NCBI RefSeq assembly: GCF_003854935.1
Contig: NZ_CP033970.1
Coordinates: 682,001 to 746,000, forward strand
Source of the DNA: Cupriavidus pauculus
GTDB lineage: Bacteria > Pseudomonadota > Gammaproteobacteria > Burkholderiales > Burkholderiaceae
Reading direction: 5' to 3'
DNA: 64,000 nt
How positions within the stretch are numbered: the first letter of the stretch is position 1; the number at the start of each line of letters is the position of its first letter. Made by a program: the position numbers and the translations under genes. Positions 17,567 through 59,363 of the stretch are shown one piece after another. The notes under the pieces were generated by a model, which was given only the letters and a program-made list of their open reading frames with translations, had not been told where the DNA came from and did not search any database.

Positions 17567-17596
17567 GTCTGATTTGGTTTGGTTTGGTTTGTTTTT

Positions 17597-17900
17597 GCTC
17601 CCCTCTCCCACACCGTGGGAGAGGGGTTGGGGGAGAGGGCCGGCGCCTGAAATCGCGACCTGTCGTCGCCCACTACGTGCCTTGCTCCCCTCTCCCACAC
17701 CGTGGGAGAGGGGTTGGGGGAGAGGGCCGGCGCCTGAAATCCCGACCTGTCGTCGCCCACTGCGTGCCTTGCTCCCCTCTCCCACACCGTGGGAGAGGGG
17801 TTGGGGGAGAGGGCGACGAGGTTCTGCTTGCCGACCGTCGCAATTTGCACCACTGGCCCTCTCCCCCGGCCCCTCTCCCGCAAGCGGGAGAGGGGAGCAC
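17597..17900. repeat. Palindromic 87-bp direct repeats plus one mosaic element
   Basis: Two complete 87-bp units (17597-17683 and 17684-17770) and the start of a third (17771 to about 17814) are nearly identical. Each begins with GCTCCCCTCTCCCAC and its inverse around an ACCGTGG centre, so each can fold as a hairpin, followed by a (G)n-rich stretch. From about 17822 a different block starts with TTCTGCTTGCCGACC and ends in CCTCTCCCGCAAGCGGGAGA; it matches the array at 54.7-55.2 kb over about 80 bp. The array fills the gap between the convergent dehydrogenase and acylase genes and encodes nothing. It may act as a REP-type transcript end. Confidence 0.9.
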
Positions 17901-51761: not shown

Positions 51762-52088
51762 ATGTCCCGCAGAGTTACCGCTTTCCACCTTTTCACCGCC
51801 ATCGTTGCCCTGGGGCTGACCGCCGGCGCCGCCCACGCCGCGTCCCCGCGCGGCGGCACGCCTGCCGGCGAGCTGTACGGCTACAGCTACCGCGTCGACA
51901 CGCGCGACGTCTACACCGATGGCGCCCGCAGCGGCCAGTTCGACCCGTACAGCGAAGGCGCGCGCAACGTTGCGCCGGTCACGCGCGAGCGTGACGACGA
52001 CCGCTCGCTGTCGGGCATGGATCGCCGCGGCGTGTCCGCCGAGCCGGCGCGCACGGTCGACGTCTACACCGACGGCGCCGCCGCCTGA
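51762..52088 (+). CDS. Small secreted repeat protein, DxY..GA family member B
   Basis: The product has 108 residues, with GGAG 7 nt before the ATG. A Sec signal peptide (TAFHLFTAIVALGLTAGAAHA) is followed by RDVYTDGARSGQFDPYSEGARN, a charged link (RERDDDRSL), the block SGMDRRGVSAEPART, and DVYTDGAAA at the end. Three copies of D-x-Y-x-D/E-G-A are present. The GMDR-GVSA-x-PAR block recurs in member C at 53805-54350 at the same place relative to the terminus, which makes homology very likely. The function is unknown. The mature protein is short, polar and rich in Asp, Arg and Tyr. A leader hairpin and a terminator-like hairpin flank the gene. Confidence 0.8.
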   Translation: MSRRVTAFHLFTAIVALGLTAGAAHAASPRGGTPAGELYGYSYRVDTRDVYTDGARSGQFDPYSEGARNVAPVTRERDDDRSLSGMDRRGVSAEPARTVDVYTDGAAA

Positions 52089-52292: not shown

Positions 52293-52631
52293 ATGTCGAT
52301 TCCCCACCTGTCGTCCGGCCAGACCGCCAGCGTGCTGCCGCTGGGCGCCAACCTCAAGAACACCCCCACCACCGCGCTGTTCAAGGCGCCCCACATGGAA
52401 GTGGCACGCCTGGTGATGCTGGCCGGCAAGCAGTTGCCGCCGCACGCCGTGGCCGGGCCGCTGACGATCCAGTGCATCGAGGGCGAGATCGAGGTCGCGC
52501 TCGACCACGGTTCGCAACGGCTGCGCGCGGGCGACCTGATCTACCTGGCCGGCAACGTCCGGCACGACGTGAAGGCGCTCAGCGACGCGTCGCTGCTGCT
52601 GACCATCGTGCTGCTGGACGGCCCGCGCTAG
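52293..52631 (+). CDS. Small cupin protein
   Basis: The product has 112 residues forming one cupin barrel: KAPHMEVARLVMLAGKQLPPH, VAGPLTIQCIEGEIEVALDHG, LRAGDLIYLAGNVRHDVKAL. The metal ligands are partly present: the His in LPPH and the His in RHDV, with Gln/Glu between. Such one-domain cupins are often of unknown function or act as dioxygenases or sugar-binding proteins. No signal peptide. It is convergent with the redoxin gene, separated by a shared hairpin. Confidence 0.82.
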   Translation: MSIPHLSSGQTASVLPLGANLKNTPTTALFKAPHMEVARLVMLAGKQLPPHAVAGPLTIQCIEGEIEVALDHGSQRLRAGDLIYLAGNVRHDVKALSDASLLLTIVLLDGPR

Positions 52632-52691: not shown

Positions 52692-53240
52692 CTACGGCGC
52701 GGCGCGGCGTTCGGCCAGCAGCTTCTGGATGGCGGCCTCGGTTTCCTTGTAGCGGCCCTCGCCATAGTGCTGGTAGACGATGCGGCCGTTGGCATCGATC
52801 AGGTACAGCGCCGGCCAGTACTGGTTGCGATACGCGGACCACGTGCCGTAGGCGTTGTCCTGCGCCACCGGGTAGCGGATGTCGTACCGCTTCAGCGCCG
52901 CCTGCACGTTCTCGGTCGATTTCTCGAACGGAAACTCGGGCGTGTGCACGCCCACCACGACGAGCCCCTGGTCCTTGTACTTGTCATGCCACTGCTTGAT
53001 GTACGGCAGCGTGTTCACGCAGTTGCCGCAGGCATAGGTCCAGAAGTCCACCAGCACCACCTTGCCGCGCAACTGCTGCATGGTCAGCGGGGTCGTGTTC
53101 AGCCAGTTGTTGATGCCCACGAATTCGGGCGCGGCGCCCTGGTCGCCCACTTTCGGGCTTTCGGCAATCGCGCCGGTGCCGAAGGTATAGATCGCGGCGA
53201 TGCCGATGGCGGCAAGCATGGCGCGGAGTACGTTACGCAT
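52692..53240 (-). CDS. TlpA/DipZ-type periplasmic thioredoxin-fold protein
   Basis: The product has 182 residues with an N-terminal signal or anchor (LRAMLAAIGIAAIYTFGTGA). The active site is DFWTYACGNCVNTLPY, with Cys71 and Cys74; a cis-Pro region YWPALYLIDANG follows. The sequence HTPEFPFEKSTENV is nearly the same as HTPEFAFEKRPENV in the redoxin part of the DipZ-like protein (57576-59363), so it is a stand-alone relative of that domain. A role in thiol reduction at the membrane is likely. It is 72 bp downstream of ohr and may be cotranscribed. Confidence 0.9.
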   Translation of the reverse strand: MRNVLRAMLAAIGIAAIYTFGTGAIAESPKVGDQGAAPEFVGINNWLNTTPLTMQQLRGKVVLVDFWTYACGNCVNTLPYIKQWHDKYKDQGLVVVGVHTPEFPFEKSTENVQAALKRYDIRYPVAQDNAYGTWSAYRNQYWPALYLIDANGRIVYQHYGEGRYKETEAAIQKLLAERRAAP

Positions 53241-53312: not shown

Positions 53313-53732
53313 TCAGACCAGTTCGGTCTCGATGTGGACGTTGCCGTGCAGGGCCTTCGAGTACGGGCAGGTGCGGTGCGCCGTTTCCACAAGCTGGCGC
53401 GCCACGTCGCGGTCCACGCCGGGAATGTGCACGCGCAGCCGGGCCTGCAGCAGGAACTCCACGCCGGCCGTGCCGAGGTCGACTTCGGTATCCACCGACA
53501 GGTCCTGCGGCAGTTGCACCTTGGCCTTCGACGCCGCGATGCCGATGGCGCCGATGAAGCAGGCGGACCAGCCGGCAGCCAGCAGCTGCTCGGGGTTCGT
53601 GCCCTGGCCCTTGCCGGCGAAATGCGAGAGCTGGATATCCAGCTTGCCGTCGCTGCTGCGGGCCGATCCGTCGCGGCCACCGGACGTGACGTGGACCTTG
53701 CCGGTGTACAGGACTTTTTCGATGCGGGTCAT
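53313..53732 (-). CDS. ohr: Organic hydroperoxide resistance protein (Ohr/OsmC family)
   Basis: The product has 139 residues, the standard Ohr length. The catalytic Cys58 (GWSACFIGAI) and Cys122 (HRTCPYSKA), Arg20 in the GGRDG loop and a Glu in NPEQLLAAG make the active site of Ohr, a peroxidase for organic hydroperoxides that uses lipoyl thiols. It is cytoplasmic. Usually a MarR repressor OhrR stands beside it; none is encoded here. It is upstream of a redoxin gene on the same strand. Confidence 0.93.
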   Translation of the reverse strand: MTRIEKVLYTGKVHVTSGGRDGSARSSDGKLDIQLSHFAGKGQGTNPEQLLAAGWSACFIGAIGIAASKAKVQLPQDLSVDTEVDLGTAGVEFLLQARLRVHIPGVDRDVARQLVETAHRTCPYSKALHGNVHIETELV

Positions 53733-53804: not shown

Positions 53805-54350
53805 TCAGGCGTAAGCGCCGTCGAGGTACGGATCGGCGCTACGGGCCGGGGGCGCCGAGACGCCGGTGCGGTCCATGCCGGCCACCGTGTGGGCGCCGTC
53901 GTAGTACGGGCTGCGCGGTTCCTGCACCGAGCGGGCGCCTTCCGAGTACGGGTCGCGCTGGTCCTGCACCGAGCGGGCACCATCGAGGAACGGATCGGCC
54001 GAGCGGACCAGGGCTACCGTGCGGGCGCCGTCGTAGTACGGGCTGCGCGGTTCCTGGACCGAGCGGGCGCCATCGTAGTAGGGGCTACGCTGGTCCTGCA
54101 CCGAGCGGGCACCATCGAGGAACGGATCAGCCGAGCGGACCAGGGCTACCGTGCGGGCGCCGTCGTAGTACGGGCTGCGCGGCTCCTGCACCGAGCGGGC
54201 GCCTTCCGTGTACGGGTCGCGTGCTTCGGTGGCGGAACGGGCGCCTTCGGTGAACGGGTCGCGGGCACCGAGGACGGAAGCCTGTGCGCCAGCAGCGGCG
54301 GCAGCGAGGGCAACGGCGAGGACGAGGCGTTGGGCGAGAGTCTTGGACAT
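53805..54350 (-). CDS. Secreted tandem-repeat protein, DxY..GA family member C
   Basis: From the ATG at 54350 the product has 181 residues; the signal peptide is LVLAVALAAAAAGAQA. The mature protein is almost wholly repeats: ten copies of D/S-P-Y/F-x-D/E-G-A (DPFTEGAR, DPYTEGAR, SPYYDGAR, DPFLDGAR and so on). These group into a 44-residue higher-order unit, RSPYYDGARTVALVRSADPF then LDGARSVQDQR and a variable end. It is present twice and partly a third time; at DNA level the period is 132 bp. The end GMDRTGVSAPPARSADPYLDGA matches member B. No enzymatic motif is present; a structural, ligand-binding or envelope role is conceivable. The high DNA identity of the units makes copy-number variation likely. 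Confidence 0.85.
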   Translation of the reverse strand: MSKTLAQRLVLAVALAAAAAGAQASVLGARDPFTEGARSATEARDPYTEGARSVQEPRSPYYDGARTVALVRSADPFLDGARSVQDQRSPYYDGARSVQEPRSPYYDGARTVALVRSADPFLDGARSVQDQRDPYSEGARSVQEPRSPYYDGAHTVAGMDRTGVSAPPARSADPYLDGAYA

Positions 54351-54687
54351 GATCGGTTTCCTTTTGGATAGCGGTTTGCGGTATGAGTCGGGGTTGTGCC
54401 GAAGCAGCGTTTTCGCCTTGTCGTTGTTGCGTTGCGCTGCCACGGAACGTATTTAAGGCGCCCGACGTATCGCGCCCGTAGCGACTTCACGGCCGTTCTG
54501 TCAGGGCACGTATCGTCGCGGCGCGTTGATACAGTCGCGTACAAAAAGGGGGGAAGGACGGCTGGAAGGCGGGTGGCCGGGCCTGGGCAGGCCGGGTGGG
54601 AGGTGCTGCTGGGAGGGCTGGGAAGGGATGACGCAGCGAGCGCGGCGTCAGGAAGTGCGGTTTGCTCCGCGGCTGGGGGGTTGCGCT
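54351..54687. other. Gene-free stretch upstream of repeat protein C
   Basis: These 337 bp hold the promoter and leader of the repeat protein C gene, with GGAAACC before its ATG at the left end. The part near 54360-54480 is less GC-rich. Open frames across it lack coding character. I see no operator, RNA gene or terminator that I can support. Confidence 0.5.
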
Positions 54688-55256
54688 GCTTGGCGGCCAA
54701 CATCGCGATTTGAACCGCTGGCCCTCACCCCCAACCCTTCTCCCGCAGGCGGGAGAGGGGAGCAAGACACCGGGATGTCGAGCTCGCAGCGGAATTCCAG
54801 CGATGGTGGTCTCCCCTCTCCCGCAACGCGGGAGAGGGGCTGGGGGTGAGGGCGTTGAGGCTCTGCTTGCCGACCAACATCGCAAGTTGAACCGCTGGCC
54901 CTCTCCCCCGACCCCTCTCCCGCAAGCGGGAGAGGGGAGCAAGACATCGGGACGTCAAGCTCGCAGCCGAATTCCAGCGATGGTGGTCTCCCCTCTCCCG
55001 CAGCGCGGGAGAGGGGCTGGGGGTGAGGGCGTTGAGGCTCTGCTTGCCGACCAACATCGCGATTTGAACCGCTGGCCCTCTCCCCCGACCCCTCTCCCGC
55101 AGGCGGGAGAGGGGAGCAAGACACCGGGATGTCGAGCTCGCAGCCGAATTCCAGCGATGGTGGTCTCCCCTTTCCCGCAGGCGGCAGAGGGGAGCAAGAC
55201 ACCGGGACGCCGAGCTCGCAGCCGAATTCCAGCGCAAGCGGCAAAAGGGGAGCAAC
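54688..55256. repeat. Mosaic palindromic repeat array, 177-bp period
   Basis: A block beginning GCTTG(C/G)C(G)ACCAACATCGC starts at 54688, 54865 and 55042, giving a regular 177-bp period. Each unit holds a hairpin CCCTCTCCCGCAGGCGGGAG (or AAG for AGG), a linker with AAGACACCGGGATGTCGAGC and GAATTCCAGCGATGGTGG, and an oppositely oriented hairpin CCCTCTCCCGCAACGCGGGA followed by GGGGCTGGGGGTGAGGGCG. The array ends with shortened, degenerate copies up to 55256. The first 80 bp of the unit also occur at 17822-17900. It is not coding and fills the gap before the histidine kinase gene end. Likely REP-derived. Confidence 0.9.
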
Positions 55257-55297: not shown

Positions 55298-56604
55298 CTA
55301 GGCCGCCAGCCGTATTTCCGCTGCCAGGCCGCCGCCATCGCGGTTGCGCAGGCTCAGGGAGCCGCCGGCGGCTGTCACGAGCTGGTGGGCGATGGCCAGG
55401 CCCAGTCCGGTGCCGCCGGTTTCGCGGTTGCGCGAGCCTTCCAGCCGTACAAACGGCTGCAGCACGGCGTCGAGCTTGTCTTCGGGGATGCCGGGCCCGC
55501 GGTCCATGATGGCGATGACCACGGCGCCCGGTTCGCGGCGGACGCCGACTTCCGCCGCCCCGCCGCCGTATTTGATGGCGTTGTCGATCAGGTTGGTCAG
55601 CACGCGCCGCAGCGCGTTGGGCCGCGTCAGGATGGCGCCGCCCGCGTTCTGCACCACCGCCACGTCCTTGCCGGTGTCCTGGTAGTCGTAGACGAGGCTT
55701 TCGACGAACGATCCCAAATCCACGCGCGACGGCGGCTCGCCGTCGCCGCTGGCGCCGCGGGCGTAGGCCAGGCCCTCGCGCACCAGTGTCTGGATTTCGT
55801 TCAGATCGTTGACCATCTTGCGCTTTTCCTCGGAATCCTCGGCCATCTCCGCGCGCAGCTTCATCCGCGTGATGGGCGTCTGCAGGTCATGCGAGATGGC
55901 GGCCAGGATCTGCACGCGCTCGGCCACGAAGTGCGCAATCCGGCCCCGCATCGCGTTGAACGCCCGGGCGGCGCGCGCCACCTCGGTCGGCCCGTCCTCG
56001 TCGAGCGGCGCCGACTTCACATTGGGATTCATCGCGTCGGCGGCCTCGGCCAGCGCGACCAGCGGGCGGATCGACAGCCGCACGGCGAACCAGCAGCACA
56101 GCACCAGCAAGGCCAGTTGCAGCACCAGCACGTAGGGCAGCCATTCGGCGATGGGTGTCATGCGCGGATGCACGTCGATCGTCAGCGGGCTGCCGTCGGT
56201 CAGCGTCAGGTGCGCCTGCAACTGCTTGCCGTCGCCGGGAATCGATTCCACCGTGACCGGATACCGCGTGCCCGTGGCCTCCATGATCCGCTCGGCGATG
56301 TCCTTGCCGCGCTGGGTCATTTCCGGCACGCCCCGCGCCCCGGGGCCCAGGATGTACTGGTAGTTGCCCCGGTTCACGCGCGGCAGCCACTGCGGCCGTT
56401 CGGCGGCCGGAATCCGGTCGAGGATGGCGACGGACGTGGCCACGTCGGTTTCGAGCGTGCCCAGCATCACCTGCCGGGCCGACATGTAGCGCTCGGAGAA
56501 CAGCACCGCGATCGACATCAGGTGCGCGACGATCAACCCCGTCAGCAGGATCAGGAACAGCCGGGACCCCAGCGTATGGGGCCAGTGCCAGCGGCGGCGA
56601 GTGC

Positions 56605-56608
<4 letters not shown>
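55298..56608 (-). CDS. EnvZ-like sensor histidine kinase
   Basis: GTG at 56608 overlaps the response regulator stop by 4 bp. The product has 436 residues. The first membrane helix is at about 16-38, a periplasmic domain of some 115 residues follows, and the second helix is at 157-178. HAMP leads to the dimerisation helix with His240 (AAISHDLQTPITRMK). The ATP lid has NALRRVLTNLIDNAIKYGG, DRGPGIPEDKLD and GTGLGLAIAHQLV. The signal is unknown. It forms a two-gene operon with the OmpR-type regulator. The 3' end abuts the repeat array. Confidence 0.95.
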
Positions 56609-57348
<740 letters not shown>

Positions 57349-57575
57349 CAGCGTCACCCCTGGTAATTTGTTCTTGGCGAAATGTGAACGATCCGTCTGT
57401 TGGCGTGATTGTATGGGCGGCCGCCGGTTTCCGTGTATCGCAATGTATCTGGGCGCGCGGGCCCCACAAAGCCATACAACTTTGCCGTTCGGCGACACAT
57501 TTACGGTAGATCAGCGGCGTCTCATTGGGGCATGCCAGATTGCTGGCCCGACATCCTTGCCGAGAGGACCCGACC

Positions 57576-59363
57576 ATGACCCTGCTGATCCTTGCCTACC
57601 TGGGCGGCGCGCTCACCATCCTGAGCCCGTGCATCCTGCCCGTCCTGCCGTTCGTGCTGAGCGGCAGCGGCCAGCCCTTCCTGCGCGGCCGCCTGCCGAT
57701 GCTGGCCGGCATGGCGCTGACCTTTGCGGCCGTGGCCACGCTGGCGTCGGTGGGCGGGGCCTGGGCCGTACGCGCCAACGAGTACGGCCGCTACGCCGCG
57801 CTGGCGCTGCTGGCCGTCTTTGGCGTGTCGCTGCTGGTGCCGCGGCTGGCCGATGCGCTGACGCGGCCGGTGGTGGCGCTGGGCAACCGGCTGGCCGGCA
57901 ACGGCACGGGCACCGGTGCCTCGCCGTGGGCGTCGCTGCTGCTTGGCGTGGCCACGGGCATGCTCTGGGCGCCGTGCGCGGGCCCGATCCTCGGCATCGT
58001 GCTGACCACGGCGGCGCTGCAGGGCGCCAGCGTGCAGAGTTCGCTGCTGCTGGTGGCGTACGCGGCCGGCGCGGCGACGTCGCTGGCCGCCGCGCTGGGC
58101 GTGGGCGGGCGGCTCTTCGCGGCCATGAAGCGGTCGATGGGCGCGGGCGAATGGCTGCGCCGCGGCCAGGGCGTGGGCGTGCTGGGCGGCGTGGCGGCCA
58201 TCGCCATCGGCGCCGATACCGGCCTGCTGGCGCGGCTGTCGATTGGCGGCCCGGCCCGGCTGGAGCAGGCGCTGATCGAGCGGCTGCACAAGGACGCCGC
58301 GCCGGTGCGGCCGGCCGCCCCGGAAGTGGCCCAGGCCGGCCCCGGCATGCTGCTGGCGGCCAACGACATGAGCGCCGGCTTCGGCAGCCGCCTGCCCGTG
58401 GAAGGCCAGTTGCCGGCGCTGGACGGCGCCGTCCAGTGGTTCAACACGCCCAACGGCGCGCCCATCACGCGCCAGCAGCTGCAGGGCAAGGTCACGCTGG
58501 TCTACTTCTGGACGTACTCGTGCATCAACTGCATCCGCACGCTGCCGTACCTGCGGGCGTGGGCCGACAAGTACCCCGGCCTGACCGTGATCGGCGTGCA
58601 CACGCCCGAGTTTGCGTTCGAAAAGCGCCCGGAGAACGTCCGCCGCGCGATTGGCGATTTCAAGATCAACTTCCCGGTGGCGCTGGACAGCGACTTCCGC
58701 ATCTGGCGCGCGTTCGACAACAACTACTGGCCGGCCGCCTACTTTGTCGATGCGCGCGGCAACATCCGCCATCACCAGTTCGGCGAGGGCGACTACGCCA
58801 ACTCCGAGCGCGTGATCCAGACGCTGCTGGCCGAGGCCGGCCAGCCGTCCGCGTCGCGCGACGTGGTGGTGCCGGACGCCCAGGGCGCCCAGGCCGCGCC
58901 TGACCTGCGCAACGTCCGATCGGGCGAGACGTACGTTGGCTACAGCCAGGCGTCGAACTTCGCCTCGCCGGGCGGTATCCGGCCCGATGCATCGCAGCGG
59001 TACGACGTGGGCACCCGCCTGCCGCTGAACCAGTGGGGCCTGACCGGCCAGTGGACCGTGGGCCCCGAGCAGGCCATGCTGGACCGCGCCGATGGCAGCA
59101 TCCGCTACCGCTTCCGGGCGCGCGACCTGCACCTGGTGCTGGGCCCCGGCGCCGACGGCCGCGCGGTGCGCTTCGTGGTGACGATCGACGGCAAGGCGCC
59201 CGGCGCCAGCCACGGTGCCGACATCGACGCCAACGGCAACGGCGCGGTCACCGCCACGCGGCTCTACCAGCTCGTGCGCCAGGCCGGCGACGTGGGCGAG
59301 CACACGTTCGAGATCCGCTTCCTGGATGCCGGGGCGCAGGCGTACGCGTTCACGTTCGGCTGA
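57576..59363 (+). CDS. dipZ: DipZ-like CcdA-redoxin fusion (cytochrome c biogenesis/thiol transport)
   Basis: The ATG at 57576 follows GAGAGGA; 595 residues. The N-terminal ~230 residues are a CcdA-like membrane domain with the paired cysteines Cys19 (LSPCILPVLPF) and Cys134 (WAPCAGPILG). A periplasmic redoxin follows at 275-430 with Cys316-Ile-Asn-Cys319 (YFWTYSCINCIRTLPY). The last ~150 residues are a carbohydrate-binding-like beta domain of the DipZ type (VRSGETYVGYSQASNFASPG). It passes electrons from cytoplasmic thioredoxin to periplasmic thiols. It is divergent from the two-component pair. A stand-alone relative of the redoxin part is at 52692-53240. Confidence 0.93.
   Translation: MTLLILAYLGGALTILSPCILPVLPFVLSGSGQPFLRGRLPMLAGMALTFAAVATLASVGGAWAVRANEYGRYAALALLAVFGVSLLVPRLADALTRPVVALGNRLAGNGTGTGASPWASLLLGVATGMLWAPCAGPILGIVLTTAALQGASVQSSLLLVAYAAGAATSLAAALGVGGRLFAAMKRSMGAGEWLRRGQGVGVLGGVAAIAIGADTGLLARLSIGGPARLEQALIERLHKDAAPVRPAAPEVAQAGPGMLLAANDMSAGFGSRLPVEGQLPALDGAVQWFNTPNGAPITRQQLQGKVTLVYFWTYSCINCIRTLPYLRAWADKYPGLTVIGVHTPEFAFEKRPENVRRAIGDFKINFPVALDSDFRIWRAFDNNYWPAAYFVDARGNIRHHQFGEGDYANSERVIQTLLAEAGQPSASRDVVVPDAQGAQAAPDLRNVRSGETYVGYSQASNFASPGGIRPDASQRYDVGTRLPLNQWGLTGQWTVGPEQAMLDRADGSIRYRFRARDLHLVLGPGADGRAVRFVVTIDGKAPGASHGADIDANGNGAVTATRLYQLVRQAGDVGEHTFEIRFLDAGAQAYAFTFG

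Follow-up and report, generated by a model that had tools for sequence, protein, structure and literature searches.

A species-variable CopQ-family repeat protein of Cupriavidus pauculus, its ohr-linked locus and its conserved promoter region

Introduction

CopQ, MmrQ and CzcJ of Cupriavidus metallidurans belong to a family whose members, in the sections of the source paper that deal with them, are described as having a signal sequence and an RDXXTDG motif that is repeated 3–4 times with spacers of defined length (PMC2864759). The same sections describe the family as metal-induced, link some of its members to the cop, czc and ncc loci, and give its BLAST range as Cupriavidus and Ralstonia (PMC2864759). 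A later account counts 21 copQ homologues in C. metallidurans CH34 and, in the part that concerns them, calls the family still poorly characterised (PMC7563307). Two other reports bear on its function in the portions that mention it: silver resistance of the mutant NA4S was lost on deleting PrsQ1 or PrsQ2 (PMC7380067), and a proteome study of CH34 lists CopQ and CzcJ as undetected (PMC11647595).

Here we describe a locus of C. pauculus within a 64,000-nucleotide stretch of DNA, referred to throughout as the window, which had been annotated previously from its letters and open reading frames (the sequence-only reading). The family itself is already known; what is added is a long member of species-variable length that is often linked to ohr, together with a candidate regulon.

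Organisation of the repeat protein gene

The gene product was designated P0001 and its features, in window positions, were as follows.

53805–54350, minus strand: CopQ-family repeat protein P0001, 181 aa, ten motifs
54279–54350, minus strand: predicted Sec signal peptide, residues 1–24, ending in AQA ahead of S, by eye from the translation
53892–54260, minus strand: motif array, motifs 1 to 9 with their linkers
54203–54072 and 54071–53940, minus strand: two 132-bp copies, followed by a partial third at 53939–53884
53808–53888, minus strand: conserved C-terminal module TVAGMDRTGVSAPPARSADPYLDGAYA, containing motif 10

The coordinates, strand and 181-aa length that the sequence-only reading gave for this open reading frame were correct. 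The start codon was ATG, with an AAGGA-type Shine-Dalgarno sequence ahead of it. The N-terminus, which opened with MSK and ran to RLVLAVALAAAAAGAQA before the S, was read by eye as a signal sequence and was conserved across 14 aligned sequences, many columns of the signal-peptide region being invariant or near-invariant; this agrees with the earlier proposal that the protein is secreted. A 345-aa open reading frame opposite P0001 (53334–54371, plus strand) was taken as an antisense artefact of the high GC content.

The mature protein was nearly pure repeat, as previously proposed. Ten [DS]P[YF]x[DE]GA motifs were counted, spaced by 14, 14, 16, 14, 14, 16, 14, 14 and 26 residues, and the last 27 residues formed the conserved C-terminal module. 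The array of 44-residue units described earlier was present but could be refined, in that the elementary repeat unit is 14 residues and the 44-residue unit is a higher-order triple of 14+14+16. When the residues of mature P0001 were shuffled 20,000 times, 19,993 of the shuffles held 0 motifs, seven held one and none held more.

The 132-bp unit was found twice and in part a third time, which also upheld the sequence-only reading. The two full copies were identical at 122 of 132 bases, and over the 56 bp of the partial copy 54 bases were the same as in either full copy. Comparison of the gene with itself at a lag of 132 gave 176 matches in 188 bases over the whole stretch, and TRF reported a period of 132 with 2.6 copies and 89% matches. 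Codon pairs that encode the same residue in both copies were identical in 52 of 58 cases, against an expectation of 33.9 from 5,000 codon randomisations (sd 3.7, highest value 47). Because this codon agreement exceeds what the protein demands, there was a duplication at the DNA level and not only a conserved protein; the 132-bp array is a fairly recent DNA duplication.

AlphaFold2, a check that had been suggested for one repeat unit, gave P0001 a mean pLDDT of 45.2 from a shallow alignment of 14 rows, with no secondary structure beyond the signal helix. P0001 also fell on the disordered side of a charge-hydropathy plot, and both predictions suggest that it is probably intrinsically disordered.

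Membership and range of the CopQ family

No Pfam model matched P0001 at its cut-off (the best, YqjK, scored 16.2 bits against 28.1) and there was no match in NCBIfam, so that the profile searches placed the repeat in no characterised domain. Among the PHROGs phage families the best match (8.7e-05) was of unknown function and had no stretch passing on its own, and among PDB sequences the best chain had an E-value of 0.059, with nothing convincing. The earlier statement that the repeat fits no known family had to be abandoned, as P0001 fits the published CopQ/MmrQ/CzcJ family by motif, signal peptide and spacers and, on this sequence comparison, is a member of it.

CopQ itself was located at 180358–180594 of pMOL30 through the gene order copL-copQ-copH, and has a signal peptide, after which come RDPYTDGGHSMG-type units, with four motifs. 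In a local tblastn P0001 matched the CopQ gene with 35% identity across 0.87 of the query sequence. A tblastn search across plasmids with P0001 as query (E <= 0.01, low-complexity filter switched on) listed 11 Cupriavidus records, and pMOL30, the home of copQ, was not among them.

A search of the whole genome with the motif pattern gave 70 matches, compared to 3 with the reversed pattern. Fifteen proteins, including P0001 and a second protein of the window (P0002, described below), had two or more motifs and a signal-like N-terminus; the other matches were scattered singles. Motif conservation was counted in 16 proteins, these 15 and CopQ, with the motif positions freed singly. Position 6 was G in 85 of 85 cases, position 3 was Y or F in 85 of 86 and position 5 was D or E in 85 of 86, where shuffled proteins yielded 0.4–2.7 chance motifs, and the linker positions varied. 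Motif spacings of 10, 12, 13, 14, 21–22 and 26 recurred among the 16 proteins, the spacing of 16 was unique to P0001, and spacings of 34 and 39 occurred once each. The members at L063, L069 and L072 had a Lys-rich unit of the GKPDPYTDGAK type and not an Arg-rich one.

The regular arginines of the array would suit a precursor from which a trypsin-like protease cuts many near-identical octapeptides, like the multi-copy precursors of peptide pheromones. Every Arg of the array sits at a motif or linker end; R follows eight of the ten P0001 motifs and precedes seven, and in the family as a whole 68 of 81 motifs are followed by R or K. Cuts after Arg would give DPFTEGAR, DPYTEGAR, three copies of SPYYDGAR, DPYSEGAR and two copies of SADPFLDGAR, with a linker of six residues between one and the next. 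Were this true, the octapeptides DPYxEGAR, SPYYDGAR and SADPFLDGAR would be stress signals between cells after export, with array length setting the signal dose and the paralogues acting as different stress channels. However, H follows motif 9 and Y follows motif 10, the paralogues differ in their linkers, the locus showed no gene recognised as a protease, transporter or receptor, and the regular Arg may simply reflect the repeat structure. We regard such processing as very unlikely.

Family membership also raises the question of metal. P0001 could be a periplasmic chelator or chaperone of copper, silver or another metal, comparable to the small proteins of cop and sil clusters, with array length as its metal capacity. 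The metal induction of the family and the position of some members at cop, czc and ncc loci, as given in the sections on the family (PMC2864759), would fit such a role, as would the need for PrsQ1 and PrsQ2 in silver resistance, as reported for those two proteins (PMC7380067); in addition, each motif unit supplies two carboxylates and one aromatic residue. The composition of mature P0001 points the other way: it lacks Cys and contains a single His and a single Met, and Cys is absent from 14 of the 15 family members of this genome, so that soft-metal ligands are nearly absent, and the D1 position of the motif is S in four of the ten repeats. Neither was a metal transporter identified among the window genes compared, or a metal transporter or pump among the genes sharing the P0001 promoter. 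A soft-metal chelator is disfavoured by this lack of Cys and near lack of His and Met, and metal binding as the function of the array seems unlikely to us.

A 34-position motif profile (E <= 0.001) matched 76 of 399 genomes at the level of the bacterial family (2 of 25 genera) and 3 of 399 at that of the order (1 of 158 genera). We take the second genus with the motif to be Ralstonia, as assumed from the literature. A relative of P0001 was present in all 60 genomes of the genus search, and no open reading frame at two weak matches (L073 and L074) had more than one motif. In the EM10 and CH34 chromid records, the corresponding stretches carried no annotated features. The 13 other family genes of the genome had no common neighbour by eye, with genes called by a home-made GC3 gene caller; the family gene at L064 lay near a regulator-kinase pair.

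Variation in array length

At ten loci with a P0001-type gene and ohr, compared between species only, the number of motifs ranged from 4 to 11. The window had ten, L009, L010 and L012 had 11 each, L013 and L014 had eight, L015 seven, L017 six, L019 five and L018 four, and none had fewer than four. In the alignment of 14 sequences, which included the window, the ends were near-invariant and the middle was of varying length.

Copy number is therefore not invariant among the relatives, and the change in array length that the sequence-only reading had expected was borne out between species. Fast slippage within a species did not find the same support, because the near relatives L009, L010 and L012 shared an identical 11-motif layout, from which the arrays appear to be stable over short distances.

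These comparisons bear on two further explanations. One, towards which the sequence-only reading leaned, is a surface-exposed antigen or adhesin of variable length whose copy number changes quickly within a population. Repeats at the DNA level and array lengths that differ between species would be expected of it; the same layout in three near relatives, the many short members of the CopQ family and the co-location with ohr and a thioredoxin, which points to stress, would not, and no anchor or autotransporter domain was matched in Pfam or NCBIfam. We consider it very unlikely. The other explanation takes the repeats to be an expansion, without selective consequence, of a short stress protein of the CopQ type, in which only the conserved ends matter. 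Near-invariant ends around a middle of 4 to 11 motifs are consistent with this, and CopQ itself has four motifs, but the near-complete conservation of G, Y/F and D/E when each motif position was freed holds in diverged paralogues with variable linkers, and the minimum among the ten ohr-linked loci counted was four motifs. A neutral expansion thus appears improbable.

The second family protein of the window had a repeat of its own.

51762–52088, plus strand: second CopQ-family protein P0002, 108 aa, three motifs, one GMDRRGVSA module

This repeat was a module of the GMDRxGVSAEPSRTIDVYTDGALA type that was present in one to three copies between species: one in the window, L015 and L017, two in L013, L014 and L059, and three in L009 and L012, L010 being left out of the count as its gene is cut by the end of the stretch.

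Gene neighbourhood

The genes surrounding P0001 were as follows.

53313–53732, minus strand: ohr, organic hydroperoxide resistance protein (Ohr family peroxiredoxin), 72 bp downstream of P0001 on the same strand
52692–53240, minus strand: ResA/TlpA-like thioredoxin-fold protein, after ohr in the same gene run (Pfam Redoxin/AhpC-TSA)
52293–52631, plus strand: small cupin protein, adjoining P0002 and syntenic in relatives
55298–56608, minus strand: EnvZ-like sensor histidine kinase, upstream of P0001 (Pfam/NCBIfam)
56605–57348, minus strand: OmpR-type response regulator, start taken at MESHVDH
57576–59363, plus strand: DsbD-TM/thioredoxin fusion, DipZ-like (DsbD_TM match weak, 17.7 bits against 27.1)

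The ohr product matched NCBIfam TIGR03561 with 148.6 bits (cut-off 88.85). Classic ohr is governed by OhrR. The gene for the DsbD-thioredoxin fusion was divergent from that of the response regulator, for which the listed GTG start (56605–57498) overruns a conserved intergenic box; 57348 is the better start. Tandem copies with periods of 177 bp and 87 bp and many CCCCTCTCCCGC/GCGGGAGAGGGG-like inverted repeats were seen at 54686–55192 and 17595–17814 of the window; these REP-like copies sit between the kinase gene and P0001 and also elsewhere in the window.

The block of P0001, ohr, thioredoxin, cupin and P0002 was kept in L009, L010, L012, L013, L014, L015, L017 and L059, and parts of the P0001-ohr block were retained in L018 and L019. 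A wider block, including the two-component genes and the DsbD fusion, was found in L009, L010, L012–L015 and L059, in a comparison that drops overlapping rows and so often displays one of the kinase/regulator pair. Across CopQ-like loci in general, ohr was in the stretch at 27 of 49 (20 of 40 distinct) and absent from it at 22 of 49 (20 of 40 distinct), many of the stretches without ohr being only about 3 kb. The first 6300 bp of L019 (1–6300) contained two adjacent regulator-kinase pairs and three matches to the promoter model R1 introduced below (64, 19.1 and 8.9 bits), which by its sequence looks like a duplicated two-component system.

A conserved promoter region

The upstream sequences of P0001 relatives aligned far beyond the coding region. 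Two features of the window were delimited.

54439–54544, minus strand: conserved 106-bp promoter region of P0001 (alignment; R1 87.1 bits)
57434–57449, plus strand: TGTATCGCAATGTATC direct repeat in the response regulator/DsbD-thioredoxin intergenic region

The P0001 promoter region contained a TTGTAC-TGTATC direct repeat with a 10-bp period, CGATACG, TGACA, GCTACGGGCGCGATACGT and a TTAAAT -10-like element. A pattern search of 50 sources, several of which are the same place twice, gave 22 distinct sequences, each exactly 106 bp long though the spacer was free over 60–90 bases; a few sites found later were 105 or 107 bp. Their common layout was TTGTA[CT], TGTAT[CT] 10 bp on (a spacing fixed by the search pattern itself), GATAC or GACAC at 30, GATAC at 73 and T[TC][TA]AAT. 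One of the 22, from L021, lay before ohr and not before a CopQ-like gene. A simple sigma-70 scan found no promoter, and the number of terminators was unremarkable.

A sequence-only model of the 22 promoters, R1, was built without this genome and without any hydrolase promoter. The window, L010, L015 and L019 had been missed by the pattern, yet R1 matched all 106 positions in them. In this genome, in addition to the P0001 promoter, R1 matched the promoters of an exported alpha/beta hydrolase (50.7 bits, E 8.6e-13) and an exported cupin (26.6 bits, E 2.7e-5). Lower scores were obtained for the promoter of a GST (21.8 bits, E 9e-4) and the intergenic region of a P450 and an epoxide hydrolase (17.4 bits, E 0.02), both below about 25 bits, where matches could be chance; the five remaining matches had E-values of 0.2 or worse. 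All E-values of R1 are rough. The half-site repeat TGTAYNNNNNTGTATC occurred five times in the genome, compared to once for a reversed control. One copy preceded P0001, one lay in the gap that separates the response regulator from the DsbD fusion, one preceded the alpha/beta hydrolase, and two were in the P450/epoxide hydrolase intergenic region. In the regulator/DsbD intergenic region a GTATC repeat with a 10-bp period was present in all ten of the ten regions aligned.

At E <= 1, R1 found nothing beside the 13 other family genes of the genome, in a 49-kb stretch of pMOL30 with copQ, or in L058. The R1-type promoter is accordingly not general to the CopQ family, whose members seem, by these sequences, to be wired to different regulators.

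The promoter region in relatives

R1 matched 15 of 16 Cupriavidus genomes, including the genome of the window, and the one without a match was 54% complete. The best site preceded a CopQ-like ORF in all 15 (in L104 by locus comparison), a result that is partly circular in that R1 was trained on promoters of CopQ-like genes, some from the same genomes. The weaker sites in these relatives, of which part only were read, are less circular: one lay before ohr (L119), one before a 42% identical alpha/beta hydrolase (L117), two before aldehyde dehydrogenases identified by eye (L115 and L116) and two before CcdA/DsbD-type genes divergent from a 64–74% identical response regulator (L120 and L121). The sites of L114 and L118 preceded ORFs of other kinds, and at L118 a cupin followed 1.1 kb beyond.

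In the sister genus, strong R1 sites were present in six of eight genomes. Seven strong-site loci were read there: five consisted of a short CopQ-like gene followed by a 77–78% identical alpha/beta hydrolase and two of ohr and thioredoxin. Of four genomes from genera without the CopQ motif by profile, three had weak sites (E 2.8e-5 to 0.005). Three of these loci were read (E 2.8e-5 to 0.004): at L130 the site preceded a thioredoxin gene, from which a 63% identical regulator diverges, and L131 and L132 had theirs near ORFs that by eye were alpha/beta hydrolase-like. Since weak sites occur in genera without the CopQ motif, the promoter set is possibly older than its CopQ proteins, and the regulon may predate them. 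Among the papers listed by literature searches on such a regulon and on the repeat protein, no regulon of this kind was seen.

Discussion

The observations on protein, array and promoter can be joined in one reading, for which we see about an even chance: P0001 would be a disordered, exported, multivalent CopQ-family protein of a peroxide, electrophile and thiol-stress regulon, with a non-catalytic role in protection or buffering. P0001 is an expanded CopQ/MmrQ member, predicted to be Sec-exported, disordered and periplasmic. Its position and the shared half-sites suggest that it is made together with Ohr and the ResA/TlpA-like thioredoxin, and that its promoter is probably switched on by the adjoining OmpR-type two-component system. 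The regulon would serve against envelope stress of the peroxide, electrophile and thiol type. Each motif may weakly bind an envelope component or ligand, so that array length would set the valency of the protein; this length drifts between species through duplicated blocks of 14 and 44 residues. The conservation of the motifs over diverged linkers favours a multi-copy binding site, and the role of P0001 in binding would then be a protective one.

On our best reading, the promoter ties P0001 to a set of peroxide- and thiol-stress genes and not to a metal pump. Against this, the published family is metal-induced, so the stress that is sensed may differ or be caused by metal. The ohr gene may answer to OhrR instead; CH34 has an OhrR regulator, which the relevant part of the source gives as raised by copper (PMC7563307).

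For a poorly understood family, the locus supplies a context that can be tested, in which a promoter that hardly varies is joined by a neighbouring two-component system and by partner genes. The partners, which are ohr, the thioredoxin, DsbD-type genes and hydrolases, point to peroxide, thiol and electrophile stress of the envelope. The ohr-linked loci form a natural series of 4 to 11 motifs in which the role of repeat number could be measured.

Comparison with known systems

Hydrophilins are defined by a Gly content above 6% and a hydrophilicity index above 1. P0001, with 8.3% Gly and a GRAVY of -0.85 (index 0.85), lies above the first limit and below the second and was rejected as a hydrophilin on this one criterion. 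It nevertheless resembles hydrophilins and LEA-like proteins in being disordered by prediction, Gly-rich, repetitive and stress-linked.

Compared with Ohr/OsmC operons, the ohr of this locus lies 72 bp downstream of P0001 on the same strand. Classic ohr is under OhrR, whereas the promoter common to P0001 and ohr genes resembles an OmpR-type site array.

PrsQ1 and PrsQ2 of C. metallidurans NA4 are, by their published description, CopQ-like and predicted to be small and periplasmic, as is P0001 (PMC7380067). PrsQ2 is given there as being under the response regulator AgrR, whose box is the inverted repeat ATKACA-N4-TGTMAT, whereas the P0001 promoter has TGTATC/GATAC half-sites at another spacing.

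The closest systems are CopQ, MmrQ, CzcJ, MmmQ, MmtQ and MmsQ of C. metallidurans CH34, which, as far as the sections on them describe, share with P0001 a signal sequence, a repeated RDXXTDG-type motif, spacers and many paralogues (PMC2864759). P0001 differs in having ten motifs, compared to the 3–4 given for CzcJ, MmrQ and CopQ (PMC2864759), and an internal 132-bp DNA duplication, and no linkage to cop, czc or ncc was seen. It also differs from the CH34 proteins in having a promoter of its own, which by its sequence appears to be common to ohr, hydrolase, cupin and DsbD/thioredoxin genes.
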